Origin: Natronolimnobius sp. AArcel1
Lineage (GTDB): Archaea > Halobacteriota > Halobacteria > Halobacteriales > Natrialbaceae
DNA length: 64,000 nucleotides
NCBI RefSeq assembly: GCF_011043775.1
Contig: NZ_JAAKXY010000007.1
Coordinates: 62,001 to 126,000, forward strand
Reading direction: 5' to 3'
The notes beneath the pieces are model-generated. The model had not been told where the DNA came from. It did no database searches and saw only the letters and a list, made by a program, of their open reading frames with translations. Both the position numbers and the translations under genes were made by a program. This document shows, piece after piece, positions 26,712 through 48,397 of the stretch (position 1 is its first letter; every line of letters starts with the position of its first letter).

Positions 26712-28706
26712 TCAGATATTCATGATCTGGCCATGGTTATCGTCGATTGCGCCTGCATCCTCGGGGAGCAAGGCAACGACGAGGAAGTCAGTGTACTCTC
26801 GGAAGTACTCGACCAGATCTGCGATCCGATCCGAGTCGACTGCCTCGAGCGAGTCAAGCAGCATGAACGGCACTTCCTCGTACACTTCGTGGACGAGATA
26901 GCCCGCAAGCGCGAAGATCAGGCCGGTCACTTCGCGTTCACTCTCACTCAAGTGGTCGATCGTATCCTCGTACGTGCTACCATCAGCCGTGCTGCGGACG
27001 ATGTGCAGATCGAACGTCGTTCGTTCAACCTTTCGTCGCCCCTCACGGACCGTCTGTCCGAGGCGCTCGATCCAGATCCGCTCGATGTTTTCGTACTCGA
27101 GGACCTCGAGAACGGCGTCCATGTGCTCGTTGAACGACTCGACGGCCTCGCGCTCGATCCGGTCGATCCGGGTGCGCAGTTCCTCGAGTTCGTCACGAAT
27201 CTCTTCGCGACGGGATTCGAGGTCAGCCTGTTCTTTGAGTGCAGCCTCGATATCTTCGATTTCCTCGGTCGTCGTCTCGAGGTCGCGCTCTAAGCGTCCA
27301 AGCGAAAACTCGAGTTCGTTGGCGCGGCGATTGAGATCGAGCAGGCTCTCTTCGTCATCGTCGTCCTCTGCGTCCGGTTCAGCCTCGGCTTCGAGTTCCG
27401 CGGCTTCGTCCTCGAGGGTATCGATCTCCGCTTCGAGGTCCTCACGGTCGCCCGTCAACTCCTCGAGACGGGACTCGCGGCGCTCGATTTCGCCTGTGAT
27501 ATCGGCCAGTCGGTCCTCGAGGCGTTCGTGCTGGCGTTTGGTCTGATCGATCTCGCGGCGTTCGGTCCGCAGTGATTCGATGCGGTCGTCGAGGTCATCA
27601 CGTTCGCTCAGTTTCTCCTCTTGGAGCGAGCGCAGTCGATCGATCGTCTCCTCGATTTCGGTTCGCTGGACCTCGCTGCCACAGGTCCAACACTGGACGG
27701 TCTCCTCATCGGCGAGCAACTGATCCGTGACCGCTCCGTCGGCGCTCGAGTCGGCTTCTTCGCCGGCGAGCAGGGCTCTGATCTCGGGATGGGAGCCCTC
27801 GAGCATCTCTTCGTTGAACTGGACGATGCTTTGGAGTTGGCTGACGACGCTGTCGATCGACTGCGAGCGCTGCTGGAGGCTATCGATTTCGTCGTCAACG
27901 GCTTCTCGGTTCAGTGAGTCCGTCTCCGGCAGCTCATCGCGTTCTTCTTCGAGTTCCTCGCGTTCGTTTCGAAGCGCAGCCAGACTCTCGCGTTCGGTCT
28001 CGAGGTCGAAGCGAACGTCCTCGAGTTCAGAGCGCTGTTCGCGTAGTTCGGTGAGCTTTTCCTCGAGTTCAGCAGAGGCATCGTCGCCATCTTGCTCGCT
28101 GGCTTCTGCTTCGGCTTCCTCGATTGCCGTTTTGACCTCCTCGAGTTCGTCGCGTTTGTCCTCGATCTGATCTTTGATGTTGGTGCGCTGGCGCTCGAGT
28201 TCGGGGAGGTCGCCTTTGAGCGACTCGAGCCGGTCAAGTTCGTCTGCCAGTTGATCCTTCTCTGCTGTGAGCCGAGAAATCTCGGCCTCGATTTCGTCGG
28301 TGTCAACCGGCCGAAGGATGATTTCACGGAGATCAGCACCGGTCGTCACCGCCCGGCGGGCGGGATTCGACTCGAGCAAAAACGCGAACAGTTCAGCGAG
28401 TTCCGGATCCTCGAGATAGGGGTCGCCCTCGGTGACAATGGAGTTGCCGGCACGCCGAAGCGTGCGTGTGTAGGTCTCATTGTCGAGTTTGAGTTCGACT
28501 TCGCCCTCATCGGCATCTGCCTTGAGCGAGGCAGATTCGCCGCCAAGACCGGCCATAAACGCCTGTAGAAGAGACGTTCGGTTCGTCGCATTCCGACCAG
28601 CGAGAACGGTGATCCCGTCGTCGAGTTCGACTGTCGTTTCATCGATCCCGCCGATATTACGGGCCCGTAAGTTCATACCTTGGGCCACAGATTTTTGGGT
28701 AGCCAT
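26712..28706 (-). CDS. archaea-specific SMC-related protein
   Basis: 664-residue Rad50/SMC-like ATPase: globular head, long heptad coiled coil (about residues 130-580), a zinc-hook-like CWTCG near residue 338, and a returning arm with the ABC signature-like LSESEREVTGL and Walker B FMLLDSLEAVDSD. The P-loop is degenerate: GRNATNRTSLLQA lacks the Gly-Lys pair of a Walker A motif. Family members in haloarchaea share this, so it may bind but not hydrolyse ATP in the usual way, or act as a structural partner. It is strongly G/C-rich and probably chromosomal core DNA beside the accessory region. Confidence 0.83.
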   Translation of the reverse strand: MATQKSVAQGMNLRARNIGGIDETTVELDDGITVLAGRNATNRTSLLQAFMAGLGGESASLKADADEGEVELKLDNETYTRTLRRAGNSIVTEGDPYLEDPELAELFAFLLESNPARRAVTTGADLREIILRPVDTDEIEAEISRLTAEKDQLADELDRLESLKGDLPELERQRTNIKDQIEDKRDELEEVKTAIEEAEAEASEQDGDDASAELEEKLTELREQRSELEDVRFDLETERESLAALRNEREELEEERDELPETDSLNREAVDDEIDSLQQRSQSIDSVVSQLQSIVQFNEEMLEGSHPEIRALLAGEEADSSADGAVTDQLLADEETVQCWTCGSEVQRTEIEETIDRLRSLQEEKLSERDDLDDRIESLRTERREIDQTKRQHERLEDRLADITGEIERRESRLEELTGDREDLEAEIDTLEDEAAELEAEAEPDAEDDDDEESLLDLNRRANELEFSLGRLERDLETTTEEIEDIEAALKEQADLESRREEIRDELEELRTRIDRIEREAVESFNEHMDAVLEVLEYENIERIWIERLGQTVREGRRKVERTTFDLHIVRSTADGSTYEDTIDHLSESEREVTGLIFALAGYLVHEVYEEVPFMLLDSLEAVDSDRIADLVEYFREYTDFLVVALLPEDAGAIDDNHGQIMNI

Positions 28707-29809: not shown

Positions 29810-30442
29810 TCATGGGCCAACCCTCGAGAACTTCCGGTTCATCCGTTTCCATCGGCGGAAGGCCGTTTTTGCAGATTTGATCCCTGCGAGCACTTCCGTG
29901 AGTGTCGAGGGTTCGGCTTCGGCGTCCGTAATCGCCGTCGGTGCGACCGCGTTCCTCGAGTGAACGGCGTCGTGACATGGTTTACACACCGTAACGAGGT
30001 TCTCAAGGCGGTGAACCCCACCGCGTGACTTTGGAACGATATGGTGGGCGTGCAATTCGACATCACCATACGGGCCGCCTCGGCGACGGCAGTTTTGACA
30101 CTGATGGTCATCACGGGCGTACACTTGCCGTCGACGGCGGTCCCAATCAGGTGGGTAATCCTGTGTCGATTGACGAACAACCCCCGCTGGAGTCTGGTTC
30201 TCTTCAACGGTGACAGGGGCATTGAGGACATTCTCCAGATCGACGTCGTCGGGATCAACTGTCTCACCCTCGGTAGAGAGATCCAACTCGACGACCTCCT
30301 GCAGGCCCTCAACACTCTCGAGGTCGACAGGATCGACACCGACCTGTTTGAGTAACTCACGAACTGTGGTGGAATCGTCGCCGCCAACTGGTTCATCCTC
30401 GGAGAGAGCGTCGGTGGAACCGCTAGACGGTTCGTCAGTCAT
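29810..30442 (-). CDS. HNH endonuclease domain protein
   Basis: 210 residues: an acidic N-terminal region (1-95) of unknown function, then an HNH nuclease domain (about 98-165). The domain is introduced by DWDRRRRQVYARDDHQCQNC, continues with HAHHIVPKSRGGVHRLENLVTVCKPCH, and ends with H. The zinc cysteines (CQNC and CKPC) and the catalytic HH are present. It overlaps the stop of the small zinc gene upstream (ATGA). Probably a DNA nuclease of a mobile region or a repair/restriction-type enzyme. Confidence 0.88.
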   Translation of the reverse strand: MTDEPSSGSTDALSEDEPVGGDDSTTVRELLKQVGVDPVDLESVEGLQEVVELDLSTEGETVDPDDVDLENVLNAPVTVEENQTPAGVVRQSTQDYPPDWDRRRRQVYARDDHQCQNCRRRGGPYGDVELHAHHIVPKSRGGVHRLENLVTVCKPCHDAVHSRNAVAPTAITDAEAEPSTLTEVLAGIKSAKTAFRRWKRMNRKFSRVGP

Positions 30443-31900: not shown

Positions 31901-32323
31901 ATGGCAACACCTTTCGATGAAAATATAGAGTCGGTAGAATCGCAGACGAACGCTGAGCGCGTGCCGTGGCGGCTTGTTCGGCAGCTATCTCTCTCGATAG
32001 TTCTGTTTAGCCTCGTTCTGATCAAACCGGTCGTCGCGCAGGACGGCGTAGTCTGCGAAGCAGAGCAACTTCCGGACATGATTTCGGGCTTCTTCCAGAT
32101 CACAACTGCCCTTGGAATCATCGGTTTGGTTGTTGTCTGGCAAGCGGATTCGCTAGCTGAGATGTTTACCGTGAACCCTGAACAGAAAAAGGGACTCAAG
32201 CAGCACAAGCGAACTGCCCTCAAGTCTGCCATAATTCTGGTCGTCCTCGGGCCGCTGTATACTGTGGCAGGATCGACGATGGGACTCCCGCTCGCTGAAT
32301 GTGTTGACTTGGTGCCGTGGTGA
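31901..32323 (+). CDS. small two-helix membrane protein (pilin/VirB2-like position)
   Basis: 140 residues: a cytoplasmic start, a signal-like hydrophobic helix (LSLSIVLFSLVLIKPVVAQ, about 27-46) with an AxA-like end, a Cys pair (VCEAEQ...AECVD), a second helix (about 60-78) and a third (about 102-120). Its size, signal and two helices, and its position before secreted and polytopic proteins, recall VirB2/TrbC-type pilin subunits or small channel components, but no sequence signature proves it. It overlaps the next start. Confidence 0.55.
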   Translation: MATPFDENIESVESQTNAERVPWRLVRQLSLSIVLFSLVLIKPVVAQDGVVCEAEQLPDMISGFFQITTALGIIGLVVVWQADSLAEMFTVNPEQKKGLKQHKRTALKSAIILVVLGPLYTVAGSTMGLPLAECVDLVPW

Positions 32324-34092
32324 TCCAGACCCCCAACCGAATACGCAATTCCATGGTCCTCCAAATACGCCAGTTGGTACTCTCCATCGGGATCGTCCTC
32401 CTCGCTGGGAGTCTTATTACGGTCCCCAGTACAGCGAGTACTGATTATCCGCCACGACCCGACCCCGGAGAGAGTGGGCTCGACGAAAACGAGACGGCAA
32501 CGCTGTGGTCGAAGTTGCCAAATGAGTGTCGCAGCGACGAAGAGTACTATGAGCAACATGGCGAGAATCGAACCGACATGCAAGAGCTTGGAGAGTGCAC
32601 TGACATCTCGTTTGCTGAACCCCCGGATACAGCGGCAATCTGGACTGCAGCAGACTTTGACACACTCGAGGCCGGTGATCGAAACACATCGGTGTACCCG
32701 GCGAGTGCTGAGACGCAGAACTCGAGTGTGATAGCAGAGGCTCATGCAACATCTTTTGCGGTTCAGCCGTCGACAATCGTTCATCAGGATGAGATGGACA
32801 CACCACAGTATGTCGCACCTGACGGTGAGTTCCGCGGGTTTGTGGATTATCGTGTCCGTGCTCCCGGCAGCGACAATAGTACGTTCTCCAGCGATTGGTC
32901 TGTACTCGAGCACGGAATTGATGAGGTTCGATTGAAACAGGACGGAGAAACAATTTCAACACAGGATGGAACGCATACCCCGGTACTCGAGTACGCTCTC
33001 GACGGGAACGGACCATCAACGTTGACGTTTGAAGCAGATATCGAGGTGTGGCTCGAGCGAGAACTCACTGACGGAAATCAGACTGAAACGGAGGTCGATA
33101 ACCTCATCATCTCGAATGATCTCGAGGTCGAGGTCTATGATCTGTCGGCGTCAATCTACTATGCTGAGTATCCAGATGGAGACACAGGCATTGCGATCTA
33201 CCAGGCACAGCCGTGGCATGGATACATCCTTTCAGAAGATGGGGACGCAGCCGTTCGTGGTAACTGGCGCTATTACACTGCTCGAGACACGGACTGGGAT
33301 CACTTCGTAGAGTCCTCAGCAACAGATAGTGTTGAGCGTCACTCGGAGGCGCTGCCAGTGTTTGTGAGGGCGTATCCGTCCGAGGCTGGTCCGCGTGCAG
33401 ACCCCATCTACGACGGACCAGACATCGTGGATGTGTGGGGCAGCGACCGTCCGTCCCCAAATGAGACGATCCACGAACACGTCGATATCGATGTTCTCGA
33501 GGAACCGTATACGCGCTCGTATGGGCTTGCTGTACGGTACGATGAGTTCGACCGTGATCACCTCGAGGTACAGGGCATCGTCCGTGGGACTACTGCTGAG
33601 CTCGTCGAACCAGAGGGCGGCGCAGAGCGAGAAATTCGTGAGAGTGAGTTATCTGTCGACATCCTCGATCAGGATGAGTCAACGATGACGATCGAGGTGT
33701 CACTTCACGACGCCGAAACTGGGAACCCGATTATGCTCGAGGATCCGTTCGAGAACGATCCGCGGTTTGAACCAATCGGCGGTTCCTCGCGTGATGGCTA
33801 CATCTCGATCGCCGGTGAACGTCTCGAGACAAACATAACCGGACAGGCAACGGCCACCCTCACGCAGCCTGGTATTCACACTGCAGAGTACCACCCTGAT
33901 TCGTGGCGGACGAACGACCCAGCGTACGTTGGTGACACAGCAAGTGTGTCCTGGCATCCGCTGACGACTGCCAGTGGCTGGTTTACACTCTTTGTCGATC
34001 TTGTCTGGCTCTCGATTCCGTTTCTCGTGGCTCTGTATGCGGGTCTGAAACTCGGCTCGTTCCTTCGAATCCCCGACGAACACAACCCATGA
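32317..34092 (+). CDS. large secreted, membrane-anchored protein
   Basis: 591 residues from GTG 32317, or 579 from ATG 32353, which places the Sec signal (LVLSIGIVLLAGSLITVPSTAS) at the very N-terminus. The long body is acidic and beta-rich with no Cys-based motif apart from two cysteines near residue 68-90. A C-terminal transmembrane helix (about 555-577: FTLFVDLVWLSIPFLVALYAGL) and a short basic tail follow. This is a surface protein held by a C-terminal anchor, possibly an adhesin or an external part of the transfer channel. It overlaps both neighbours. Confidence 0.62.
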   Translation: MVIQTPNRIRNSMVLQIRQLVLSIGIVLLAGSLITVPSTASTDYPPRPDPGESGLDENETATLWSKLPNECRSDEEYYEQHGENRTDMQELGECTDISFAEPPDTAAIWTAADFDTLEAGDRNTSVYPASAETQNSSVIAEAHATSFAVQPSTIVHQDEMDTPQYVAPDGEFRGFVDYRVRAPGSDNSTFSSDWSVLEHGIDEVRLKQDGETISTQDGTHTPVLEYALDGNGPSTLTFEADIEVWLERELTDGNQTETEVDNLIISNDLEVEVYDLSASIYYAEYPDGDTGIAIYQAQPWHGYILSEDGDAAVRGNWRYYTARDTDWDHFVESSATDSVERHSEALPVFVRAYPSEAGPRADPIYDGPDIVDVWGSDRPSPNETIHEHVDIDVLEEPYTRSYGLAVRYDEFDRDHLEVQGIVRGTTAELVEPEGGAEREIRESELSVDILDQDESTMTIEVSLHDAETGNPIMLEDPFENDPRFEPIGGSSRDGYISIAGERLETNITGQATATLTQPGIHTAEYHPDSWRTNDPAYVGDTASVSWHPLTTASGWFTLFVDLVWLSIPFLVALYAGLKLGSFLRIPDEHNP

Positions 34093-34922
34093 CACAGAAC
34101 TTTCCAACCCGACGAACCGTCCTCAGTGGAATCGTAGCTGGCGCTGCTGTCGCCGTGAGTGGGTGCTCCAGTAGCTCAGATAGTGGATCTGATAATGGAG
34201 CTGGTGACTTCGACGGTGACGATGTCTTTACCGACATCTTTGTCGAGGACACGGACCTCATCCTCGAGTTCACTGACGAGTCATCAATTGACCAGATAAA
34301 CGTCATCGATCCCAGCGGTGAGTTGTTCGACGAGCTGCTGATTCCATCCGGTATTAGTCGCGATACGGTTGCGATTGGAACCGACTACGATCCCGGTGTG
34401 TACGAGATCATTGCACTCGAGGACGGCGATGAAAAGTCCTCACAGTCCGTGACGATTGAGCCCGATATCCGTATTACCGACCTCCGGCTCGGTCGAAACC
34501 ATCCGGATGAGATGTTCGAGGGGGCAAGTGACCGTGAAATTGAGACAGAGGTTATTTTGACGTTACACAATAGGGGTAATGGCCCAGATGAGATACGGCG
34601 TCTGGTGTTTGATGGCGATGTGCCGCGGCCAACCTCTGATGAGTTCGATGAGAGCGGTATCTACGACACAGATAGTGACATCCGTAGCTATGCAGACGCT
34701 GTTGAACTATCGTCTGATGATGAGATAACGATCTATAGCCGGCAAATGCCTTTCCATTCCGCGGATCCGGATGTTTCGTGTTCGCCGGATACTACGGAAG
34801 GAGAGTTTCAGGTTTACCTCGAGACGATTGTTCAGGACCCATATCCAAATGATGAGTTTGAGGTGACGTATTCTGGTGAAAACCTAGTTGACTGTGATAT
34901 CCACGTGGAGGTAACCTCATGA
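34089..34922 (+). CDS. Tat-exported lipoprotein
   Basis: 277 residues with a twin-arginine signal (TRRTVLSGIVAGAAVAVSGC). The Cys within VSGCSS is a lipobox, followed by a Ser/Asp/Gly linker. The body is beta-rich and acidic, with later cysteines (VSCSPD, DCDIHVEV). Start overlaps the stop of the preceding gene (ATGA), and its own stop overlaps the next start, so it is fully embedded in the operon. It is probably an extracellular component near the channel, analogous in position to a VirB7-type lipoprotein, though no homology is claimed. Confidence 0.7.
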   Translation: MTQNFPTRRTVLSGIVAGAAVAVSGCSSSSDSGSDNGAGDFDGDDVFTDIFVEDTDLILEFTDESSIDQINVIDPSGELFDELLIPSGISRDTVAIGTDYDPGVYEIIALEDGDEKSSQSVTIEPDIRITDLRLGRNHPDEMFEGASDREIETEVILTLHNRGNGPDEIRRLVFDGDVPRPTSDEFDESGIYDTDSDIRSYADAVELSSDDEITIYSRQMPFHSADPDVSCSPDTTEGEFQVYLETIVQDPYPNDEFEVTYSGENLVDCDIHVEVTS

Positions 34923-36064
34923 GTTCACTCACTGAATTTGGTCGTCGATGGTTCGAGGATATAATTGAAACCATCATCGAATGGTTTCAGGATGGGTTGG
35001 TGGAAGGATACGATTCAATCACAGAGGAATTGTTCGGGACTCCAGTTCCAGAAACGAGTGGCAGTTTCGTCTTTAGTGCCCCGACAAATGATCCATGGAT
35101 TGACTTGCATGACTCTCTCGTTGCTGGTGAAATCATGCTCCTTTCCTTACTTCTTCTTGTCATTTTTGTTCAGGGGCGGCACACTATTCGAATTTTCAAT
35201 TTCAGCAGCAATTATGAAGCACGCAAAGCTCGAAGAACTGCGTGGACTGGTGCCATTTTAATTGTAACTTGGTATTGGGTAGCCGTCTTGATCCTGTATC
35301 TAGTGAATGGTTTTGCAATCGCTCTTGTACCTGGTATAGATGCCCTCATACGTGGCATGGTCGATTTTTTGACGGTATCGATATCGAACCCTGCGCTTTC
35401 GTTGTTTATGGCAGCGATTGGCGGCATTGCCATGTGGATTCTGCAGGCACTCTTTTTCATTCGAGAAATATTGCTCTATGTCTACCTTTATGCGATGCCA
35501 ATCGGGATTGCAGTTGCATTTGGTCACCTCCCAATCGTCTCACAGATTGCAAAACAGATTTGTATCAAATTTGTACCGCTGGCCATCATGCCTCTCCCAC
35601 TTGCGATTTTGTTCAGAGGCTATGATCTTCTTTTCGGGGCAGGAACGAACTCTGCTATTGCTCCGGAGAGCGCATTTCTGAGCTATCTTGTCGGCGCATC
35701 GCTTCCGATCTTCGCGCTTGTTCTCATCTGGAAACTCTTCGCGTATGCGAGTCCACTGACGGCGAAAGTCATCGGTGGTGCAACGAAAGGAGCGGTCACA
35801 GTTGGAGCGACACTCGGGGCTGCGAAAGTCGCTGGCCCACTCGCTGCCACAACGGCTGCTCGGTGGGGGCCGAAAGCTGCGGCATGGCAAGTCGCCGGTC
35901 AGCAGATCAGTGGCCGCCGGCGTGGTTCTAACGCTAACTCGAGCGGTGCTCCATCGAATGCTGCGGCTGGAGGCACAACGCACGACAACGTCGTCGCGGA
36001 CGCCTACGGGCAACGAGGCGTTCCACAGTATCGACGCACCGAAAACGATCCTGGATACTACTGA
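34919..36064 (+). CDS. polytopic membrane protein (VirB6/TrbL-like)
   Basis: 381 residues: extracellular-facing amphipathic N-terminus, then about 7 hydrophobic segments between residues 60 and 285, with Gly/Ala-rich helices near 280-320 and a hydrophilic Arg/Ser/Asn/Gly tail ending YRRTENDPGYY. A Gly/Ala-rich multi-helix protein just before a VirB4-like ATPase is the usual arrangement of VirB6/TrbL channel proteins. Third positions are more A/T-rich in the first half than in neighbouring genes. Confidence 0.62.
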   Translation: MSSLTEFGRRWFEDIIETIIEWFQDGLVEGYDSITEELFGTPVPETSGSFVFSAPTNDPWIDLHDSLVAGEIMLLSLLLLVIFVQGRHTIRIFNFSSNYEARKARRTAWTGAILIVTWYWVAVLILYLVNGFAIALVPGIDALIRGMVDFLTVSISNPALSLFMAAIGGIAMWILQALFFIREILLYVYLYAMPIGIAVAFGHLPIVSQIAKQICIKFVPLAIMPLPLAILFRGYDLLFGAGTNSAIAPESAFLSYLVGASLPIFALVLIWKLFAYASPLTAKVIGGATKGAVTVGATLGAAKVAGPLAATTAARWGPKAAAWQVAGQQISGRRRGSNANSSGAPSNAAAGGTTHDNVVADAYGQRGVPQYRRTENDPGYY

Positions 36065-36066
36065 CC

Positions 36067-37182
36067 ATGGCTGATCAAGACGCTGCTTCCCGACGAATTA
36101 TGGATGAACTGGGCGAAGAGAACCGTGTCCCGATCGTCAACGTTGACGAGGGGGATGTTTACGTACTCCTTGGGTTCCCGATCGGCGGCTTACTCATCGG
36201 TGGCTTCAGCGGTGTGGATGCGCTTGTCTTTCCGCTGGTGCTCGTTGGCCTCGCGCTCGGCGTCGCCGCCGTCTATGCAAGCCCGTCGCACCTCTCGGCT
36301 GCAACGTGGCTCACCGATGTCTATCGTCACTACTGCAAACGTCCTCGAGTGACCTACAGCGTTTCAGCGAAAGATGAACACACCCACGCCCACTCGAATA
36401 CCGCCCGGAACGAAGGCGGGTTGATCAACTACACGCCCTTTGCACCGGATGAGCGAACGCAAGATCTGACTAATATCGAGCGAGCGTGGCCTGGTGCTAG
36501 AACCGTCCAGCGAACGGATGGCACGATGGAGGCATTTCTCCAGGTCGATCCGGGGAACATGGATTTCGCAATGAGCGGAGACTGGGCGCACATCCAAGAC
36601 GTCGCCAGCGAGTTTGCGAACAAGGAACTCGATTACAACCTGAAGTTCTACACGACGACGCGAACCTTTCCAGTAGAGGAACTCATCACACAGATCGACG
36701 AGCGACTCGAGGACGACGATGTCTCTGATAACCCGGTCTTCGAGGAGTTACTCGCGGAGTATCGCGAACAGCGCCCTCGAGACCTCGACGAAGCCCAACA
36801 AATTCGCTACTATATTGGCGTCCAGGTCAATCCGCTCGAGGTCTACAGCCGCTACCGTGATGAACAATCGCCTGCTGAGAAACTCACGTCGCTTCCGGTG
36901 ATTGGATTTCTGTTCAATCCGTTTGTCACCCGCCGTGAGGACTTAGCGGATATCGAAGTCCGATCACGGATGTTCGATAAACTTGATCGACGCTGTCGAG
37001 CCGTTCAGACTGAGTTGGTCCAGAAAGCGCCAGGGTGGTCGGCACGCCGATTGAGCACAGTCGAACTGTTCGTGCTTGCAATGGACTTCTGGAACGGCGA
37101 AGAGCACACCTACGACGACGCTGCTGATGCGGTTCGCGAACAGTCGGCTGTTCGTCGCCAGCGGAGGGAAAGCGATGAGTAG
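36067..37182 (+). CDS. PrgI-like helices joined to a VirB4 N-domain-like protein
   Basis: 371 residues. Two adjacent transmembrane helices (about residues 29-50 and 53-72: VYVLLGFPIGGLLIGGF and ALVFPLVLVGLALGVAAVY) recall the PrgI/VirB3 small membrane partner. The soluble part (about 120-360) with FLQVDPGNMDFAMSGDW, ELDYNLKFYTTTRTFP and RYYIGVQVNPLEVY resembles the N-terminal, non-ATPase domain of VirB4 proteins. The true VirB4-like ATPase follows with an overlapping start. It is therefore either a fusion of the PrgI/VirB3 and VirB4-N functions or a separate scaffold. Confidence 0.58.
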   Translation: MADQDAASRRIMDELGEENRVPIVNVDEGDVYVLLGFPIGGLLIGGFSGVDALVFPLVLVGLALGVAAVYASPSHLSAATWLTDVYRHYCKRPRVTYSVSAKDEHTHAHSNTARNEGGLINYTPFAPDERTQDLTNIERAWPGARTVQRTDGTMEAFLQVDPGNMDFAMSGDWAHIQDVASEFANKELDYNLKFYTTTRTFPVEELITQIDERLEDDDVSDNPVFEELLAEYREQRPRDLDEAQQIRYYIGVQVNPLEVYSRYRDEQSPAEKLTSLPVIGFLFNPFVTRREDLADIEVRSRMFDKLDRRCRAVQTELVQKAPGWSARRLSTVELFVLAMDFWNGEEHTYDDAADAVREQSAVRRQRRESDE

Positions 37183-39346
37183 CACTATCTTTGCCGTCTC
37201 CGCGCTCGGGCAGTATCTGGCTGGACTCGAGACGCCTCACATCATCGCCGGCATCGTCGTATTCGCTGTCTTTCTTGGCGTTGGCGTGAAGATTTATCAG
37301 GCTCGGACACGCGAGGAAACGGAAGTCAACCTTTCGGAGTTTCTCGACGAAGACACGCTCGAGGAAGGCGCTGTTGAAGAGACGATTCTCGAGGAGATTC
37401 CGGAACGTCACAAGAGCGCTGTTGCACCGTCGGCAATCACGTGGGAAACACGCGCTGCACAGGTTGGTGAACAGTGGACGTCGACGCTCTACATTGCAGA
37501 TTACCCGGACTACCCGAAAGATGGCTATCTGAACGAACTGTTCGAACTGACCGATATCGAGTTCGATTTGACCGTCCACATCACGCCGAAAAATCAGCAG
37601 AAAGCTCGCGACGAACTCCAGCGAGTCGCAGACGACCTGCAGGTCGACGCTGATCTCGAGCAAAGCGTTCGTGGGGCCTATCTCCAGGAGCGAGCAAACG
37701 AGGCAGTGTCGACGTACAAGGCAGTCGAGAACGGCAGCCGTGTGTTCGCTCAGGGAATGTTCATCACTGTCCGTGCAGAGCGGAAAGACGAACTTCGGGA
37801 GGCAGTCCGGACGATTCGGAGCCGGCTTCGCGAACAGCCCGCTGGCCTCTCACCGAAAACAGCGATCTGCAAGCAGGATCTTGCCCTTCAGGCCGCTGCA
37901 CCAATCGGTTCGAACCCGTTCGGTCGCGAAGCAATCTCGCTCGGTGGGGCTGTCGGTGCACTCCTTGCCTCGCCACACAATGCGACGATTCTCGAGGATG
38001 ACGGCGTCGAGTTTGGGACTCACTGGAAAAACGAGAGCCCCGTCGTGATCGATCCATTCGCCCGAGAAAATGGCTATGCGATGTTCACGATTGGAGATCC
38101 CGGTTCTGGAAAATCGTTCGGTGCAAAACAGAACTTCATCCGCTCGATTGAGCAAAGCGAGGATCGAATCGGGATCATCCTCGAGCCGTTGAATAACTGG
38201 GCCGGCGTCGCCGAAGCACTCGGTGGCACACGGATTACAGTCGGCGGTGATATGGGGTTGAACCCGCTCGAGATCAAGCCAACGCCCGAACGGATCCAGC
38301 GAGCAATGGGTGAAGACGCGAGTCCATATCGCGAAAAGCTCGACAGCGTGATGAGCTTCCTCTCGAACTACTTTGCGCTCCGTGGGATCCAACTCGGCGA
38401 CAAGCGCACAACGCTCGAGACAGCCATCGAAGAGGCATATGCTACGAAGGGCATTACGGACGATATTGCGACCCACGACAACGAGAGTCCGACGATGCGA
38501 GACGTTCTCGATATCCTCGAGGATATGGTCGACAAGCCGGGCGGCTTCGTCGTCCGAACAGACGAGGAAACCCAGAAGATCGAGTCGGATGCGACATGGC
38601 TGATCGACCAGTTGCGATCCTTTGCAGCGGATGGTCGCTACGAGAACCTCGGGCGACCGACCGAGTTCGATCTTCGCGACGAGAAGGTGTTCTACCTGGA
38701 TTTGGCCCAGCAGGAAGGCAGCCTCGGTGGAAGTACGAGTCTCATCATGCAGTTGTTGATCACGCTGGTCTATGAGCGAGCAAAGGAGACGGACAAGGAG
38801 GTCGTGTTCGTCATCGACGAAGCCCGCTATCTGATGCAAGATGCAGCGAGTCTCGAGTATCTCGAGATCGTGTTCCGTCACCACCGCCACCATGATCTTT
38901 CGATCCGGATGATCACCCAGACCGTCGACGAGTTCTTCCAGCATGCCGAGTCCGAGGCCATCTTGGATCAATGTGCGATCAAACAGTTCCACCATCTCGA
39001 TGGGATGGACCAACACTGGGCGAACGAGTTTGGATTGAATTCTGCGCAGATGCGCTTCGTCCAAGACGCCGTTCCAGGGAGTGAGGATATCGGCTACTCG
39101 GAAGCCCTTGTCGGCGTCGACGGCGACTGGCGCGGTATCGAGGTTCATGCACTCGAGAAAGAGAAGGCTGTGATCGATTTCGACGCCAAAGAACAGTCTC
39201 GAGGCGATCTTCCCGGCGTTCCTGATCGAAGTGATACACGCTCTGTAGACGACTCCCGAAACGAGGAAATCGATTCTGAAGAACCGCAGTCGGAGGGTCA
39301 CGAGGTGCTAACGTGGGCTGACGGGGGTGATCACACGGATGAGTGA
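37175..39346 (+). CDS. VirB4-like type IV secretion ATPase
   Basis: 723 residues from the ATG at 37175, which overlaps the preceding stop. A single N-terminal membrane helix (HIIAGIVVFAVFLGVGVKIY, about 20-40) is followed by a VirB4 N-domain. The P-loop is GDPGSGKSFGAK (residues about 307-318), a conserved region TLETAIEEAY near 412, and the Walker B is VVFVIDEARYLM (about 543-554). A glutamine-rich sensor loop (MITQTVDEFFQ) follows. This is the energising ATPase of a transfer apparatus, close to AAA ATPases of the HerA-FtsK class. The stop is overlapped by the next gene. Confidence 0.83.
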   Translation: MSSTIFAVSALGQYLAGLETPHIIAGIVVFAVFLGVGVKIYQARTREETEVNLSEFLDEDTLEEGAVEETILEEIPERHKSAVAPSAITWETRAAQVGEQWTSTLYIADYPDYPKDGYLNELFELTDIEFDLTVHITPKNQQKARDELQRVADDLQVDADLEQSVRGAYLQERANEAVSTYKAVENGSRVFAQGMFITVRAERKDELREAVRTIRSRLREQPAGLSPKTAICKQDLALQAAAPIGSNPFGREAISLGGAVGALLASPHNATILEDDGVEFGTHWKNESPVVIDPFARENGYAMFTIGDPGSGKSFGAKQNFIRSIEQSEDRIGIILEPLNNWAGVAEALGGTRITVGGDMGLNPLEIKPTPERIQRAMGEDASPYREKLDSVMSFLSNYFALRGIQLGDKRTTLETAIEEAYATKGITDDIATHDNESPTMRDVLDILEDMVDKPGGFVVRTDEETQKIESDATWLIDQLRSFAADGRYENLGRPTEFDLRDEKVFYLDLAQQEGSLGGSTSLIMQLLITLVYERAKETDKEVVFVIDEARYLMQDAASLEYLEIVFRHHRHHDLSIRMITQTVDEFFQHAESEAILDQCAIKQFHHLDGMDQHWANEFGLNSAQMRFVQDAVPGSEDIGYSEALVGVDGDWRGIEVHALEKEKAVIDFDAKEQSRGDLPGVPDRSDTRSVDDSRNEEIDSEEPQSEGHEVLTWADGGDHTDE

Positions 39347-42300
39347 GTACATCCGTGTCACGCCGACCTCTGAGAAACTACGTACTGCTGAGGTCCCGGC
39401 CGCACTCGAGAGTCTGCACAAACTCACGAATCCTGCTGCTCGAAACGTGTCTGACCGTCTCAATCCATTTGCTGATACGGCCCCGCCGACGTTCGAATTT
39501 CTTGCTATCAGCGAAGGTGAAGACGACCCAGTCGAGTTCTACTACGGCATTGATCACTCGGCACACCTCGAGACACTCGAGAAGCAACTCAGAACGATCT
39601 ATCCGCAGACGTTCGACATCACCCGGAGTGAGTTGGATCTCGAGCAGAAACTCGTCCAGCCAGTCGACTACACCAGAGACGAGTATCGCGAACGCCTCGA
39701 GGATGGGAGACTGCTGGATCCGCCACTGGCTGATGAACGGGATGAGTTCAGAGAGGATGAGCAAACCGACGGTGGTCGTTCAATCCTCGAGGATGAGGTC
39801 GATGACACCGCTGCTACCATCGGTTCGTCTCTTGAGGTAGAAGCGGCATCTTCAGACTCAGCGACGGTTTCCGCTCGGCCACCACTCGAGGACGTCGACC
39901 CAATTGGCGTTCAGTGGTACGGGCGGGCACAGCGCAAGCGCGACTGGATGACGACGATCAAATCATTTGCTGGCCGAGACCCAGATCCAACCGAGTACAA
40001 TACCGACCAACCGCCACTCGCGACGCTGATCGATCATCTCACCGAACTCGAGTACCCGATTGCGTTCCAGGTGGTCTGGCAGCGCAAAGACGAGTGGACA
40101 GCTGATGCAGAGTTACGCGTTGAGGATCTTCGAGATGGACGAGATACGTTCGGCCAGCGCTATATCGGCCCCCTGTTCGAGACGAGTGATCTTGATGCAG
40201 ACGAACGTGAGCCGACCCTTGGAAATGAAGCCCAGAATCGAATCGACCGGATCCAGGCTAAGCATCCAAAACGGACTTTCTCCGTAAACGCTCGAGCAGT
40301 CGCGATTCCGCCCACTGCTGATGGGGATTTAGATGAGAAGGTGGAGACGCAATTCGATCAACTCGCACAATCACTGAACGCCTTAGATGGGCCGTTCTAC
40401 GAACTCGAAGGACAGCGACTTCGTTCGAAAGGTGTACTAACCAGAACGAAACGAAAACGCGCTCGAGCAGTTCTCAACAATATACTTCACTCGGACCTCA
40501 CGACGGGACGGGGGAAACGGCGTCCCGATCTCGTATTAAACGCCGATGAACTCGCGAATCTTACTGTCGTCCCCTCCTCACAGGACCTCACTGTCGAAGG
40601 GAGCCGTGGAACACGCTCCGAGCAACGCTCTCGAAATCCATTGCCTCGCCCACATCCAGACCTCATGGACGAGTTCCGAGAGGGCATGGCAATCGGCTAC
40701 GCCATCGATGAGAACGGTGAGACAGAACAACAGCCGGTTCGGATCCCACCGTCGTTGCTTCCAACGCACTACGTTCGAGCGGCTACAACAGGCGGTGGTA
40801 AGTCGAAGTCACTGACCAACGACAAACTCTCCCTGTACGACCAGACTGACGGCCCGATTATCCTGATCGACGCCAAAGGCGATGGACTCTGTGAGGATTA
40901 TATGCGAGCCCACGCCCATCGGTTCGGCGTTGACGATCTCGAGGAGAACGTCCTTCACTTCCCGATTCCGGAGGTCCTTCCTGGATTTGCGTTCTTCAAT
41001 ATCGAGCGCCAGCTCGAGAACGGGGTTCGGCGTGTCGATGCAGTCCAGAACAAGGCAGACCACTACGAGGAGATTCTGAAGATGGTGATGGGTGAAGACC
41101 GCTACGAGCGAGCAGTCGTTGCTCCTACGCTCATCAAATACCTCATCAAGGCACTCTACGACGAGGAGCATGGCCGCGAGAACGGCCGCTACCGCGAGAG
41201 TGTCGATTACTTCGCTCACGATCAACTCGAGTACGTTGTCGACCAACTCTGGCAAGCTGGTCCACCCAATCCCGTGGAGGATGCAGCACCACGCTCGAGC
41301 AATGCACAGGTCCAGCGACGACTCGACCGCCAACTACAGCTCGACCCAAACACGTTCGCGACTGTGATGGGCGGAGTCAGTAACCGTCTCGATTACATCT
41401 CGCAGGACGAGCATCTGAGACGTGTCTTCAATAATACCGAGTCGCAGTTCGACTTCCGCGATGTCCTCGATGATCGCAACGTGATCCTATTCGATCTCGG
41501 CGGTCTTCGAGATGAATCTGCGAAGGCGATGACCGGCGTCATACTGACGGAGCTCTACAACGCGTTGCGAGAGCGTGGTGACGATATTCAACAGAAACCG
41601 GACGACTACGTGGTCAACCTGATCATCGACGAGGCCTCGAGTCTGGCCGTCTCTGACGTAATGAACACGCTGTTGGAGAAGGGGCGGAGTTTCCGGCTCT
41701 CTGTTGGCCTCTCGTTGCAGTTCCCCGAGCAACTCGATGTTAAGGGCGGTCGCGAGGTCTACCTGAACGTTCTCAACGACGTCGGCAGTCCGATCATCGG
41801 CAAGATCGCCGTCGACAACGAGATCGCGAAGGTAATGGCCCACGAGGATATGGATCCCGTCGAGTTCGCCAATCGGATTCGGTCACTCCCTCGGGGTGAG
41901 TGGATCGTTCGACTTCCGAGTCCAACATTCGGTGAGACTGGACCAGAGCCGTTCAGCCTTGCGCCGCTTCCGATTCCGTCTGGCCACCCCGAGAGCGCTA
42001 CTCCACTGACTGCCAGTGAGGAACAGGCGTTTCAGAGCGCACTCGAGCGAATTCACGAACGAGCAGATTCCGAGTACGGTGTGGTGACAGACTCACCGCC
42101 AACCGGTCAAACACCGTCTACTGTTCGCGAGACGTTCGAGTTAGGGTCCGACGACCTCGATGTTGCGCTCGCAAACGCTGTCCGAACGGTTCAACACCAA
42201 CAGGGTGTTCGCGAAGCGAACGGATGGGTTCCTGTCCAGTTGGTGGATCAGACGCTTCGAACACGATACGAGGCAGCCGATGCATCACCACCATCAATCG

Positions 42301-43646
42301 AAGAGCTTGGAGAAATCCGAGACCGATCCCGATTGCTCGAGGTCACACTTGATCAGGATACTGGTGAGATTGTCGTCCGGTTGACCGACGACGGTGAAGC
42401 GGTGACTGAGCCGGATACGGGTGATGTGCGGTCCTCGGGAAGCGAGTTGCACGATGAACTGTTGATCGCTACCAAGAGAGAACTCTCACAGGAGGGATTC
42501 GATGTGACGATATTTACGCAGGATGGGAGCGAAAAACCGGATGGACGAGCGGTTCACCCCGACTGTGAGGCTATTTTCGATATCGAGGTTGAGTCTACGA
42601 CAGTCGATAAACCGGTGAAAGTCCTTCGGAACTTCCAACGGGCTCGAGAGGCCGAACACGTTCCATTGTTCGTCGTTACCACCACTGAGGACGGTGACAA
42701 TGAACTACAGACTGCAGCCCGTCTCGAGGATATCCTCGCCTCGCCAGTCAACGAACTCGAATCCGGGGAGGTGCGATTATACACGACTGATTCTCACATC
42801 ACGTTCGATGGTGGTGCAAACGTTCGAGATGGTGTGACTGCAGTTCGACCGGCGACTGGTGACTCGAGGCGGTCTGTATGGACGCAAGACAAGAGTGAGT
42901 ATCGGTTGAGCGATGGACTAGGCACTGAATTTGTGACCGTCTCATCGCTTGACTCGCTTTCACGAAGCGATGTGCCTGCCGTGTATAGCTATGATCGAGC
43001 CACCGATGAGTACGTTGTCTACGAGCCGACCAAACGCCACCGCTACGACAGCAAATCCGCGTTCGAACAAGAGTGGGTGCCGATCCGAGAGCCGTTCGTT
43101 CCTGAGACAGTCACATCGACACCTGACGATCCTCTCGAGTCGTCTGTGATTGCTGTCCTCGAGAAAGACAGTAACTCCATGCAGATCTACCGTGATGGAC
43201 AGCGACGTCCTCTCGATTCTCTCGTCGATGTGATGAACTCGCAACCCGCTGAATCTTGTCCCGGCCCTGCTGAAGGTAACAAGTCTGAGGCATCTGTCCT
43301 GCCTGTTCTTTCAGAAAGTGACCGGGAGCAATCCACTGCTTCTTCTCCGACGGAGCACCCCGAACAGAATCAATCAAATGATTCACAAGATGTCGATTTC
43401 GGGACCTTCGTCGAGGACTGCCTTCTTCAACAGGAAGGTGCCGAGATTGCAAAGGCTGACCTCTACACCGTCTACGAAGCCTGGACAGACACACACGACC
43501 ATGAGGCGTATGCAAGGTCCTGGTTTGGTCGGAAACTGAGCGAGCATGTATCGTATGATGAATACCGTCCGACACGGGACGGTGAGCGTGTACGTCACTA
43601 TACTGGTATTACGCTCTCATCCTACGGGCGCAACTTCTTCGACTAA
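39339..43646 (+). CDS. VirD4/TraG-like coupling ATPase with extra C-terminal domains
   Basis: 1435 residues from the ATG at 39339. The N-terminal half (1-450) has no clear family; the central HerA/FtsK-type ATPase (about 465-880) has the P-loop ATTGGGKSKSLTN (about 482-494) and Walker B NLIIDEASSL (about 760-769), plus LSLQFPEQL after it. Two further domains follow. About 1030-1120 looks like a PD-(D/E)xK-type fold (KPDGRAVHPDCEAIFDIEVE). The last 80 residues (EDCLLQQEGAEIAKADLYTV to the end) resemble the winged-helix C-domain of phage/plasmid P4-type primases. It probably recruits DNA to the VirB4-type channel. Confidence 0.72.
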   Translation: MSEYIRVTPTSEKLRTAEVPAALESLHKLTNPAARNVSDRLNPFADTAPPTFEFLAISEGEDDPVEFYYGIDHSAHLETLEKQLRTIYPQTFDITRSELDLEQKLVQPVDYTRDEYRERLEDGRLLDPPLADERDEFREDEQTDGGRSILEDEVDDTAATIGSSLEVEAASSDSATVSARPPLEDVDPIGVQWYGRAQRKRDWMTTIKSFAGRDPDPTEYNTDQPPLATLIDHLTELEYPIAFQVVWQRKDEWTADAELRVEDLRDGRDTFGQRYIGPLFETSDLDADEREPTLGNEAQNRIDRIQAKHPKRTFSVNARAVAIPPTADGDLDEKVETQFDQLAQSLNALDGPFYELEGQRLRSKGVLTRTKRKRARAVLNNILHSDLTTGRGKRRPDLVLNADELANLTVVPSSQDLTVEGSRGTRSEQRSRNPLPRPHPDLMDEFREGMAIGYAIDENGETEQQPVRIPPSLLPTHYVRAATTGGGKSKSLTNDKLSLYDQTDGPIILIDAKGDGLCEDYMRAHAHRFGVDDLEENVLHFPIPEVLPGFAFFNIERQLENGVRRVDAVQNKADHYEEILKMVMGEDRYERAVVAPTLIKYLIKALYDEEHGRENGRYRESVDYFAHDQLEYVVDQLWQAGPPNPVEDAAPRSSNAQVQRRLDRQLQLDPNTFATVMGGVSNRLDYISQDEHLRRVFNNTESQFDFRDVLDDRNVILFDLGGLRDESAKAMTGVILTELYNALRERGDDIQQKPDDYVVNLIIDEASSLAVSDVMNTLLEKGRSFRLSVGLSLQFPEQLDVKGGREVYLNVLNDVGSPIIGKIAVDNEIAKVMAHEDMDPVEFANRIRSLPRGEWIVRLPSPTFGETGPEPFSLAPLPIPSGHPESATPLTASEEQAFQSALERIHERADSEYGVVTDSPPTGQTPSTVRETFELGSDDLDVALANAVRTVQHQQGVREANGWVPVQLVDQTLRTRYEAADASPPSIEELGEIRDRSRLLEVTLDQDTGEIVVRLTDDGEAVTEPDTGDVRSSGSELHDELLIATKRELSQEGFDVTIFTQDGSEKPDGRAVHPDCEAIFDIEVESTTVDKPVKVLRNFQRAREAEHVPLFVVTTTEDGDNELQTAARLEDILASPVNELESGEVRLYTTDSHITFDGGANVRDGVTAVRPATGDSRRSVWTQDKSEYRLSDGLGTEFVTVSSLDSLSRSDVPAVYSYDRATDEYVVYEPTKRHRYDSKSAFEQEWVPIREPFVPETVTSTPDDPLESSVIAVLEKDSNSMQIYRDGQRRPLDSLVDVMNSQPAESCPGPAEGNKSEASVLPVLSESDREQSTASSPTEHPEQNQSNDSQDVDFGTFVEDCLLQQEGAEIAKADLYTVYEAWTDTHDHEAYARSWFGRKLSEHVSYDEYRPTRDGERVRHYTGITLSSYGRNFFD

Positions 43647-43698
43647 TCTATGTCAGCAAACACCATGAGCCCACGACACTCCCTCCGTGATCAGTGTC

Positions 43699-43781
43699 GT
43701 CCAGGCACTCTGGGGGCCGGGAAAATGCCTGGACAGGTATGTCCAGGGAAAAACCGCAATACTGCGTCGAATGTCCAGGCA
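43699..43781. repeat. GTCCAGG(C/G)A repeat cluster
   Basis: Short motif GTCCAGGCA at 43699-43707 and 43773-43781, its inverse TGCCTGGAC at 43726-43734, and the variant GTCCAGGGA at 43741-43749: four copies in about 80 bp in a 275-bp non-coding gap just before a replication-like gene. This is the appearance of an iteron or regulatory cluster. A palindromic GGGGGTTACCCC follows at about 43812. Confidence 0.5.
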
Positions 43782-43922
43782 AATTCGTGGGCAAAACCGA
43801 CTAGTATAGAAGGGGGTTACCCCGTCGGTCAGGGCAGTCGATATCGCGTAAGAAAGTTCGATGCCCCGAGGGGTTTCTCGACTCCGTCAAAGTCGGAGAG
43901 TCAATGCAGGTGGTGACTAAAT

Positions 43923-45200
43923 ATGAATAATCAGAATGAAGATAAATTCGACATCGAAGCGATCCCAGACGAACTAGCCGAACGCCCACAGTGGATCTGT
44001 TGGAGAGCCGAAGACAGAGATGGAAAGACGACAAAGGTACCAGTGGATCCAACAACTGGAAGCTTTGCGTCGACGACTGACGACCGAACGTGGACGACGC
44101 TGGACCAGGCACTCGAGTACGTGGTGACTGGTGCTGATGGAATCGGCTTCGTCTTCACCGCGACGGATCCGTTGGTCGGTGTGGACCTAGACGACTGCCG
44201 CGATCCCGAGACAGGCAAGCCACTCGAGCCAGCGCCGTCGATCATCGATCAACTGGATTCATTCACCGAGGTCTCTCCGTCGGGAACCGGATATCACGTT
44301 CTCCTCGAGGGTGACCTTCCTGATGGGCGGAACCGACATGGGTCGCTCGAGATGTACGATCACGCTCGCTTTTTTACGGTGACTGCAGACCACGTTAGTG
44401 GAACGCCGACGTCGGTCAACGAGCGACAGGAGGCACTCGAGGCGGTTCACGAGGAGTGTATCGCCTCCGAGGTGAGTGGTGCGGCTGACACTGTCGAAGC
44501 CAACCCACCGGCCACTGAGAGCCGTGAACAGTCATTGGGCCTTGAGGATGAGGAACTCCTCGAGAAAGCACGGAACGCGTCGAACGGGGAGAAGTTCGAC
44601 CGGTTGTGGCGTGGCTCAACGGCTGGGTACGACAGCCAGTCAGAAGCGGATATGGCGCTGTGCTGTTTGCTGGCGTTCTGGACGGGTGGTGACGCTGCTC
44701 GAGTCGATCAACTCTTTCGGCAGTCGGGACTGCTTCGAGACAAGTGGGACGAGGTCCATTACAGCGACGGTTCGACGTACGGTGAGAAGACAGTCGAACG
44801 AGCAATCGCGAGTACGGAGGATGTCTACACTCCCTCGAGTGGAAACGAGACAAGCACTGGAGGAGCGCAGACGACGGCTGCACAGGGTACCAGCCAGGAT
44901 GGACCCACATCGACGACTGAGCGGACTGTGAGTGGAACTGACGGTGCACGGGCAGCCTATCTGGCCGAGAAGAATCAACTCTTGAATGAGCGGGTGTCTG
45001 CTCTCGAGGCGACGCTCGAACAGAAAGACGAGCGTATCGAGGAACTCGAGGACGAGAATACAGCGCTTCGTGAGTCACTTGAGACGTGTACAGAACAACT
45101 CGAGGACCCTGATCAACTGTCGGCGCTCGAGGACGCTGGGACTGATAATCCAGTCTCGGTCTGGAACCGAACAAAGCGCTTCTTTGAGAGAAGCAAATAG
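43923..45200 (+). CDS. primase-like / NrS-1 polymerase-type protein
   Basis: 425 residues. The first 150 form a prim-pol-like N-terminal domain seen in plasmid and phage replication proteins (ERPQWICWRAEDRDGKTTKV, GIGFVFTATDPLVGVDLDDC, SGTGYHVLLEG). Residues about 215-290 fit the HBD-type helical module of NrS-1-like polymerases (SQSEADMALCCLLAFWTGGD). A flexible Thr/Ser region and a C-terminal coiled coil (about 340-395) follow. The conserved Asp-Leu-Asp-Asp is consistent with metal binding. It is preceded by the repeat cluster at 43699-43781, so it could be the replication gene of the element. Confidence 0.68.
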   Translation: MNNQNEDKFDIEAIPDELAERPQWICWRAEDRDGKTTKVPVDPTTGSFASTTDDRTWTTLDQALEYVVTGADGIGFVFTATDPLVGVDLDDCRDPETGKPLEPAPSIIDQLDSFTEVSPSGTGYHVLLEGDLPDGRNRHGSLEMYDHARFFTVTADHVSGTPTSVNERQEALEAVHEECIASEVSGAADTVEANPPATESREQSLGLEDEELLEKARNASNGEKFDRLWRGSTAGYDSQSEADMALCCLLAFWTGGDAARVDQLFRQSGLLRDKWDEVHYSDGSTYGEKTVERAIASTEDVYTPSSGNETSTGGAQTTAAQGTSQDGPTSTTERTVSGTDGARAAYLAEKNQLLNERVSALEATLEQKDERIEELEDENTALRESLETCTEQLEDPDQLSALEDAGTDNPVSVWNRTKRFFERSK

Positions 45201-47588: not shown

Positions 47589-47894
47589 ATGGGAACAACG
47601 CGAGTCAACTTTCGGCTTCCAGAGGAACTACTCGAGAAGGCCGATGTTGCGGCTGAAATAACACATACAAACCGTACAGAAGTCATCAAGAAGGCACTAC
47701 AGCAGTATTTCGAAGAGGTTGAAGATGACGAGCGGTTTAATGAAGCACTCATTGAACTCTATCTTGATGAGAAAATCGGCTTCGAAACCCTGAAAGAGTT
47801 CGTCGGTCGGCAAGATGCTGAAGCCGTTCAGGCTTCGAAAGCTGTTCTTGAGCAGGGAGATGACCTAGCAGACGAACTTGCAGATCTCGAGTGA
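47589..47894 (+). CDS. VapB-like ribbon-helix-helix antitoxin
   Basis: 101 residues starting with a ribbon-helix-helix domain (TTRVNFRLPEELLEKADVAA, residues 3-22, then helix VIKKALQQYFEEVEDD). The C-terminal half is a helical tail that would bind the toxin. Stop and next start overlap (GTGA), so it is coupled to the PIN protein. RHH antitoxins of this kind repress their own promoter as a toxin-antitoxin complex. Confidence 0.83.
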   Translation: MGTTRVNFRLPEELLEKADVAAEITHTNRTEVIKKALQQYFEEVEDDERFNEALIELYLDEKIGFETLKEFVGRQDAEAVQASKAVLEQGDDLADELADLE

Positions 47895-48397
47895 CAGGGC
47901 CAGGAATGATCATTATCGATACAAGCGCGTTCATCTCTTTAGCCACAGCAGACTCGGTAGAGATGGTTCTCGAGGAATACGATGTCCAGACAACCGAGAC
48001 GATACTCGAGGAATTAGTGGAAACAGCAGAGTATGACGATGTTCACGGTCGCGCAGCAACGGCTGTTCTCGAATTGAAGCATGAGTATACTATTCATGCC
48101 ACCTCCGAGCCAGCACTCGAGACGTCTCGAGTCGATAGTGGTGAGGCGAGTTGCGTCACCCTCTGTCGAGAACTTTCAGCGGATTTTTTGATTATTGATG
48201 ATCTCAGAGCGTTACCTGAACTCCAGAACCTGACCGATGCACAGGTGGCGATTTCACCGATTATGTTGAACGCATTGGTTAAACGGAACCGGCTCACAGA
48301 AAGAGAGGCAAAGAGGAGGGTCGAAACACTGGCTGAAAATCGTGACTGGCTAGAATCGCCGATTTACCGGCGAGCACAAGATTTGTTTTCTGCGTAG
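47891..48397 (+). CDS. VapC-like PIN-domain toxin
   Basis: 168 residues from the GTG overlapping the antitoxin stop (an internal ATG at 47906 gives the alternative start MIIIDTSAF). PIN acidic residues: Asp in MIIIDTSAFISL, Glu in ETILEELVE near 42, Asp/Glu in DSGEASCVTLCRELSADFLIIDD near 83-105. VapC proteins cleave tRNA or rRNA. The C-terminal half (ISPIMLNALVKRNRLTEREA) is longer than in minimal VapC and resembles the archaeal PIN proteins of about 160 residues. Confidence 0.8.
   Translation: MTGPGMIIIDTSAFISLATADSVEMVLEEYDVQTTETILEELVETAEYDDVHGRAATAVLELKHEYTIHATSEPALETSRVDSGEASCVTLCRELSADFLIIDDLRALPELQNLTDAQVAISPIMLNALVKRNRLTEREAKRRVETLAENRDWLESPIYRRAQDLFSA

Follow-up and report, generated by a model that had tools for sequence, protein, structure and literature searches.

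In the window analysed here, 64,000 nucleotides of a haloarchaeal genome (G000, positions 62001-126000 of the 141 kb contig C7), a 1439-aa open frame with a GTG start (39327-43646, forward strand) encodes a VirD4-like protein. We give about an even chance to the reading that it is a coupling protein of haloarchaeal type IV secretion or conjugation, fused to a MOBC-like DNA-processing module and working together with a primase. This is backed computationally by the predicted folds, by invariant residues of catalytic type, by the generality of the nuclease domain among VirB4-linked VirD4s, by a likeness to MOBC at the profile level, and by the linkage between the C-terminal winged helix and the primase. 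The frame stays intact in relatives of 44-94% identity, and full-length relatives occur mostly on plasmid-sized contigs of many haloarchaea, with the gene order of the window. The features of the locus are:

31901-34922, forward strand: upstream part of the same transfer operon, three genes (31901-32323, 32317-34092 and 34089-34922) conserved by synteny in relatives
34919-36064, forward strand: TrbL/VirB6-like membrane protein (PF19590, E 2e-222)
36067-37182, forward strand: membrane protein before VirB4, fused to VirB4 in some relatives
37076-39346, forward strand: VirB4-like ATPase
39327-43646, forward strand: VirD4-like coupling ATPase of 1439 aa carrying a DNA-processing block at its C-terminus, with no transmembrane segment predicted
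40734-41966, forward strand: ATPase core with TTGGGKS and LIIDEA motifs, residues about 470-880, from sequence
42141-42419, forward strand: first winged helix, residues about 939-1031, from the AlphaFold model (ORC/Cdc6/MarR-type winged helices, Z 8-9.6)
42432-42755, forward strand: predicted PD-(D/E)xK, MOBC-relaxase-like domain, residues about 1036-1143, with H1042, D1072, E1087 and E1089
42756-43256, forward strand: beta-rich domain, extending to about residue 1310
43389-43625, forward strand: C-terminal RFX/Pox_D5 winged helix of D5-type primase-helicases, residues about 1358-1433
43650-43916, forward strand: 88-aa open frame between VirD4 and primase, kept in some close relatives only
43923-45200, forward strand: NrS-1-type primase-polymerase with AEP domain, helix-bundle domain and C-terminal coiled coil, no helicase

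Since the VirB4-like and TrbL/VirB6-like genes lie directly upstream, the frame stands where a type IV secretion operon has its coupling protein. Its ATPase core is of TraG/TraD type and adjoins VirB4. A TraD-type NCBIfam profile matches the core with E 1e-5, and DUF87 and TraG-D_C match below threshold; relatives pass the curated TraG-D_C cut-off, under which the window protein itself scores. Together with the upstream genes, the scores of the relatives back the name "VirD4-like" that the initial annotation had given to the ATPase. The core and the VirB4 and TrbL partner genes are shared with VirD4/TraG coupling proteins. Unlike these, the window protein has a long N-terminal region, a C-terminal DNA-processing block and no hydrophobic segment above threshold that could serve as the N-terminal transmembrane anchor of VirD4. 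Coupling proteins without a transmembrane domain are a described class (PMC7431656).

The C-terminal block was modelled with AlphaFold from 57 relatives, both as residues 930-1439 (pLDDT 81) and as residues 1034-1310 alone (pLDDT 86). A low-confidence linker separates the beta-rich domain from the C-terminal winged helix, which superposes in the model on the RFX DNA-binding domain (1dp7; Z 12.1, 1.5 A over 75 residues). When the C-terminal part was searched, Pox_D5 (PF03288) matched residues 1361-1414 with E 5.5e-5, above its curated cut-off. The PHROG primase family 1829 (772 positions) is divided here between two genes: positions 2-308 match the neighbouring gene (E 3e-94), positions 677-758 match the VirD4 C-terminus (E 8e-7), and positions 308-677, the SF3 helicase part, match nothing on the plasmid. 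The neighbour (43923-45200) also matches PDB 6a9w (E 8e-59) and PF22763 (E 4e-31). A helix-bundle domain is present, and D88, D90 and H125, the AEP D-x-D and H, are invariant in the NrS-1-type primase, whose HMM was built without the coiled coil.

Judged from sequence, a D5-type primase is found here in two pieces: its tail is the C-terminal winged helix, its body the neighbouring NrS-1-type gene, and the helicase between them is missing. A full-length protein with all parts (primase-HBD-D5_N-DUF5906-Pox_D5) was found at locus L043. Compared with such D5/P4-type primase-helicases with an NrS-1-type domain (phrog_1829; L043), both ends are found here, one as the next gene and the other as the VirD4 tail; unlike in them, the SF3 helicase is missing and the tail rides on a DNA pump. 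The initial annotation had described the last 80 residues as primase-like. The winged-helix likeness stands (Pox_D5, PHROG 1829, 1dp7), but the segment is not a primase, and the priming enzyme is the product of the neighbouring gene.

Winged helix and primase go together in relatives. Among VirB4-selected loci with enough downstream sequence, a primase-type gene adjoins 14/14 VirD4s with the winged helix and 0/12 without it (Fisher p 1e-7, not corrected for kinship; absence judged over fetched stretches of at most about 16 kb), and in a second set all of 77 winged-helix VirD4s (77/77) have a neighbouring primase. On a tree of the ATPases the winged helix changes twice independently, and both times the primase changes with it, though an independent-pairs test with only two pairs cannot reach significance. 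The ATPase cores of L032, L084 and L194 are 73-74% identical to that of L035, a VirD4 with neither winged helix nor primase, and 23% identical to that of the window protein, while their nuclease domains are 48-50% identical to the window's and 30-36% to that of L035. Nuclease, beta domain, winged helix and primase thus appear to travel as one unit between unrelated VirD4 motors.

One lineage has a different protein of 670 aa (type B) in place of the primase. Its gene (L200:7448-9472, L203:3395-5407, L112-L122) lies downstream of a clade of winged-helix VirD4s. The N-terminal part of the protein matches nothing in Pfam, PHROG or PDB, and comparing the profiles of the two primase types, A and B, gave no convincing similarity. 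The name primase comes from AEP-like motifs seen by eye (GDIDL, DSVGGAYVF, NRQYKPPLSIH) and from the architecture of L041, a full-length relative of type B that also ends in D5_N-DUF5906-Pox_D5, with DUF5906 as the SF3 part. On these grounds type B is possibly an unrecognised primase family.

The linkage bears on a further reading, which we consider rather improbable, namely that the C-terminal winged helix and the primase serve vegetative plasmid replication only and that the fusion to VirD4 is incidental to transfer. This reading concerns the primase link and is compatible with any view of the nuclease. D5-type primases are common as replication proteins of plasmids and viruses, and the primase also occurs in some elements that have no winged-helix VirD4 beside it: in four of them (L163, L199, L208 and L209) VirB4 lies directly beside an NrS-1-type primase, with no VirD4 in the stretch fetched, so that the primase is not exclusive to winged-helix VirD4s. 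However, the winged helix sits inside a transfer motor, and the block and the primase have moved together between unrelated motors, which speaks against this reading. Group-2 VirD4-like matches (defined below) were seen 15-30 kb away in some of these genomes (G072, G096).

For the region between the two winged helices, the initial annotation had proposed a PD-(D/E)xK-like pattern. The pattern was confirmed at residues 1042-1106 (H1042 ... PD1071-1072 ... E1087-V-E1089 ... K1098) and far exceeds chance expectation. All 57 relatives (57/57) keep H1042, D1072, E1087 and E1089 without change, and D1043 is likewise invariant, in a domain whose other acidic positions have a median conservation of about 0.6 (0.63 over all acidic positions); hence D1072, E1087 and E1089 do not vary freely, while most other acidic residues do. 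In a wider set of 118 rows, which takes in proteins just 26-39% identical in the nuclease domain, E1087 is kept in 117, E1089 in 116, and the three acidic residues D1072, E1087 and E1089 in 115-117; D1072 was partly selected for because one search seed contained PD, which does not hold for H1042, E1087 and E1089.

The modelled domain has an alpha-beta-beta-beta-alpha-beta core (model elements: helix 7-22, strands 26-29, 40-44 and 47-55, helix 63-75, strand 79-84). In it, PD and ExE lie on the strands where they are expected, and the first helix carries H1042. The structure matches listed for the isolated region are mostly known or putative PD-(D/E)xK proteins: PaqCI (Z 8.6), Hjc (8.3), AF1548 (8.2), NucS (7.6), FokI (7.3), VRR_NUC (6.9), Can2 (6.6), the N.BspD6I nickase (6.5) and also AgeI. 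Each score is modest, the best (8-8.6) being near the reach of unrelated folds, and it is the consistency of the list that speaks for the fold. The best Foldseek E for the region is 0.035, and the last helix of the beta-rich domain (about 1298-1305) falls inside the range aligned to nuclease structures. A PDB sequence search with the C-terminal part of the protein found no match, a profile search with the nuclease alignment gave only chance-level matches, including a VRR_NUC nuclease at E 1.5, and no nuclease or relaxase family turned up when every member of the two nuclease groups was scanned against Pfam. Taken together, we regard the nuclease-like fold that the structure prediction was expected to reveal as well supported, and likewise the linkage of winged helix and primase.

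Among the families compared, the best profile match of the nuclease domain is the MOBC relaxase. MOBC proteins are relaxases of PD-(D/E)xK type that carry a winged helix at the N-terminus and form no covalent intermediate with the DNA (PMC12857230). Our comparison set comprised six MobC proteins, three of which share more than 90% identity; they come from related plasmids, since the CloDF13 record has no intact annotated mobC. All six display the winged helix, H, PD and ExE. Aligned by hhalign with the nuclease domain over about 105-120 columns, they keep H, PD and ExE in register and give P values of 6.5e-6 to 1.4e-5 at a probability of 80-85%. None of 60 column-shuffled controls did better than P 0.012 against MOBC, and Hjc, primase and VirB4 profiles reached P 0.04 or worse; the nuclease domain against an archaeal Hjc profile gave P of about 1e-3. 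With archaeal Hjc and NucS and with type IIS restriction enzymes, the predicted model has the core fold of PD-(D/E)xK nucleases in common, but these enzymes have ExK where ExE is found here.

The layout agrees as well. Here, too, a winged helix precedes the nuclease domain (residues 939-1031), and the order of winged helix and H..PD..ExE domain is common to MobC of CloDF13-like plasmids, TraX of pAD1 and "replication-relaxation" proteins. In both cases the nuclease is tied genetically to a coupling protein: mobC lies directly 3' of the coupling-protein gene, with a one-base overlap in several records, an arrangement from which a fusion would start. Unlike MOBC proteins, the window nuclease is fused to the coupling ATPase and is accompanied by an extra beta domain and a second winged helix. 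From the in-register profile match and the shared layout, the archaeal proteins resemble a coupling protein to which a MOBC-like module has been joined. We do not file the domain as a member of MOBC, since the MOBC Lys at ExE+4 is unmatched in the window domain and there is no match at the Pfam level.

The nuclease part is not peculiar to this protein. In a sample chosen by VirB4, with the downstream region inspected afterwards to avoid selecting for the nuclease domain, 27/27 complete VirD4s near VirB4 carry one (many VirB4 loci had no VirD4 within the stretch fetched). The window type (group 1) accounts for 22 and a divergent one that keeps the H..D..ExE order (group 2) for 5. Not counted among the 27 is a 541-aa VirD4-like gene (L190) that carries neither type but adjoins a gene that does. 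The group-2 residues H22, D55, E70 and E72 are invariant in 18 rows, and the two groups align in register but with weak profile similarity (P about 5e-4 to 8e-4). Group 1 also occurs beyond the haloarchaeal order, in VirB4-VirD4 pairs from a different family of the phylum (L264-L268). The literature searched, of incomplete coverage, contained no description of a nuclease domain in archaeal VirD4.

According to reviews and surveys, recognisable relaxases are absent from archaeal conjugative elements or very rare in them, and how the DNA is made ready for transfer is treated as an open question (PMC9905601, PMC12857230, PMC3158045, PMC6563490). In the present genome as a whole, the bacterial relaxase families PF03432, PF08751, PF03389 and PF07514, of HUH, HD and other types, have no match; a search for PF01076 (Mob_Pre) matched none of the control genomes and is uninformative. 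No oriT was located for this plasmid, and MOB-suite typed 71/72 plasmid records matching the block as non-mobilizable. The earlier suggestion that the protein might stand in for the missing relaxase gains from the profile likeness, the MOBC-like layout and the lack of matches to the four families. Our tentative view, somewhat short of an even chance, is that the relaxase of archaeal conjugation is a MOBC-like domain fused to the coupling ATPase, so that one protein finds, cuts and pumps the DNA, and that in one large subclass a primase-helicase tail brings a primase to the transferred strand.

We propose a model in which nicking, site specificity, the order of the steps and the roles as relaxase and in transfer are what we infer. 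The winged helices would seat the VirD4-like protein on a plasmid site, where the nuclease domain would nick or cut by metal-dependent chemistry involving D1072, E1087 and E1089 together with H1042. Cutting would leave no lasting covalent bond to the DNA, as reported for MOBC. Freed DNA would be driven by the ATPase into the VirB4/TrbL channel. The NrS-1-type primase, brought in by way of the C-terminal winged helix or next to it, would prime the complementary strand. A conserved nuclease domain inside a coupling protein is a concrete, mutable and testable candidate for the relaxase of archaeal conjugation, and if the model is true, plasmids now typed non-mobilizable become likely self-transmissible.

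It is unlikely, in our estimate, that the domain works instead in the manner of HerA-NurA, as a nuclease that processes or resects ends non-specifically, supplying single-stranded DNA for export but nicking at no particular site. VirD4 does fall within the same wider FtsK-HerA class of pumping ATPases, HerA-NurA has been proposed as a source of single-stranded DNA in archaeal DNA transfer (PMC9905601), and a NurA-like nuclease beside the TdtA ATPase is needed for efficient DNA donation in Thermus (PMC5365140). These systems likewise combine an ATPase of this class with a nuclease in DNA transfer or end processing, but as separate genes, in contrast to the single polypeptide found here. Among the families compared, however, the profile similarity of the nuclease is to MOBC, and the two flanking winged helices suggest recognition of a site.

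We find it less probable still that the plasmid is cut and moved as double-stranded DNA by a terminase-like cut-and-pump mechanism. The lack of relaxases has led to the suggestion that archaeal conjugation transfers double-stranded DNA (PMC6563490), and actinomycete elements use an FtsK-type pump to move DNA in this form (PMC3218068). That a primase is strictly paired with the winged-helix subclass fits single-strand transfer or replication better.

The usual Lys of D/ExK is a Glu in the nuclease domain, which thus departs from the PD-(D/E)xK superfamily at the Lys position; the nearest conserved Lys, K1098, is Gln in 16/118 rows. The Lys position varies among known active members too, and BamHI also has Glu there (ExE). 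That this Glu marks a catalytically dead fold used for DNA binding or assembly only is improbable, because H/D/E/E stays invariant even between groups of low identity, most other acidic positions being variable, and because ExE is present in the MOBC proteins as well as in BamHI.

Several proteins outside the main pattern were also seen. At L190:6407-13035, two VirD4-like ATPases of 541 and 1666 aa lie in tandem, with a nuclease-like domain on the second only. L266:4114-5877 encodes a 587-aa VirD4/HerA-like ATPase with a nuclease domain (QPDM...AVEIETR) at its end; it is far from other VirD4s on the tree and has no VirB4 directly beside it. Proteins of 772-794 aa at L270:7584-9902 and L271:7655-10039, in which no VirD4 core was detected, have a group-1-like nuclease domain and a C-terminus that is winged-helix-like by eye. 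The genome of the window itself encodes a second VirD4-like protein, on contig C8 (L273:8313-12053), of 1246 aa and with a group-2 domain; no VirB4 was seen nearby.

In the window, an SbcC/Rad50-like ATPase (26712-28706; PF13476, PHROG 77) and an HNH endonuclease (29810-30442) are encoded just upstream of the transfer operon. The co-occurrence of Rad50 and HerA-like genes with DNA-transfer genes has been discussed (PMC9905601). Two small overlapping genes at 47589-48397, resembling by eye an antitoxin and a PIN-domain-like toxin, are kept beside the element in L024.
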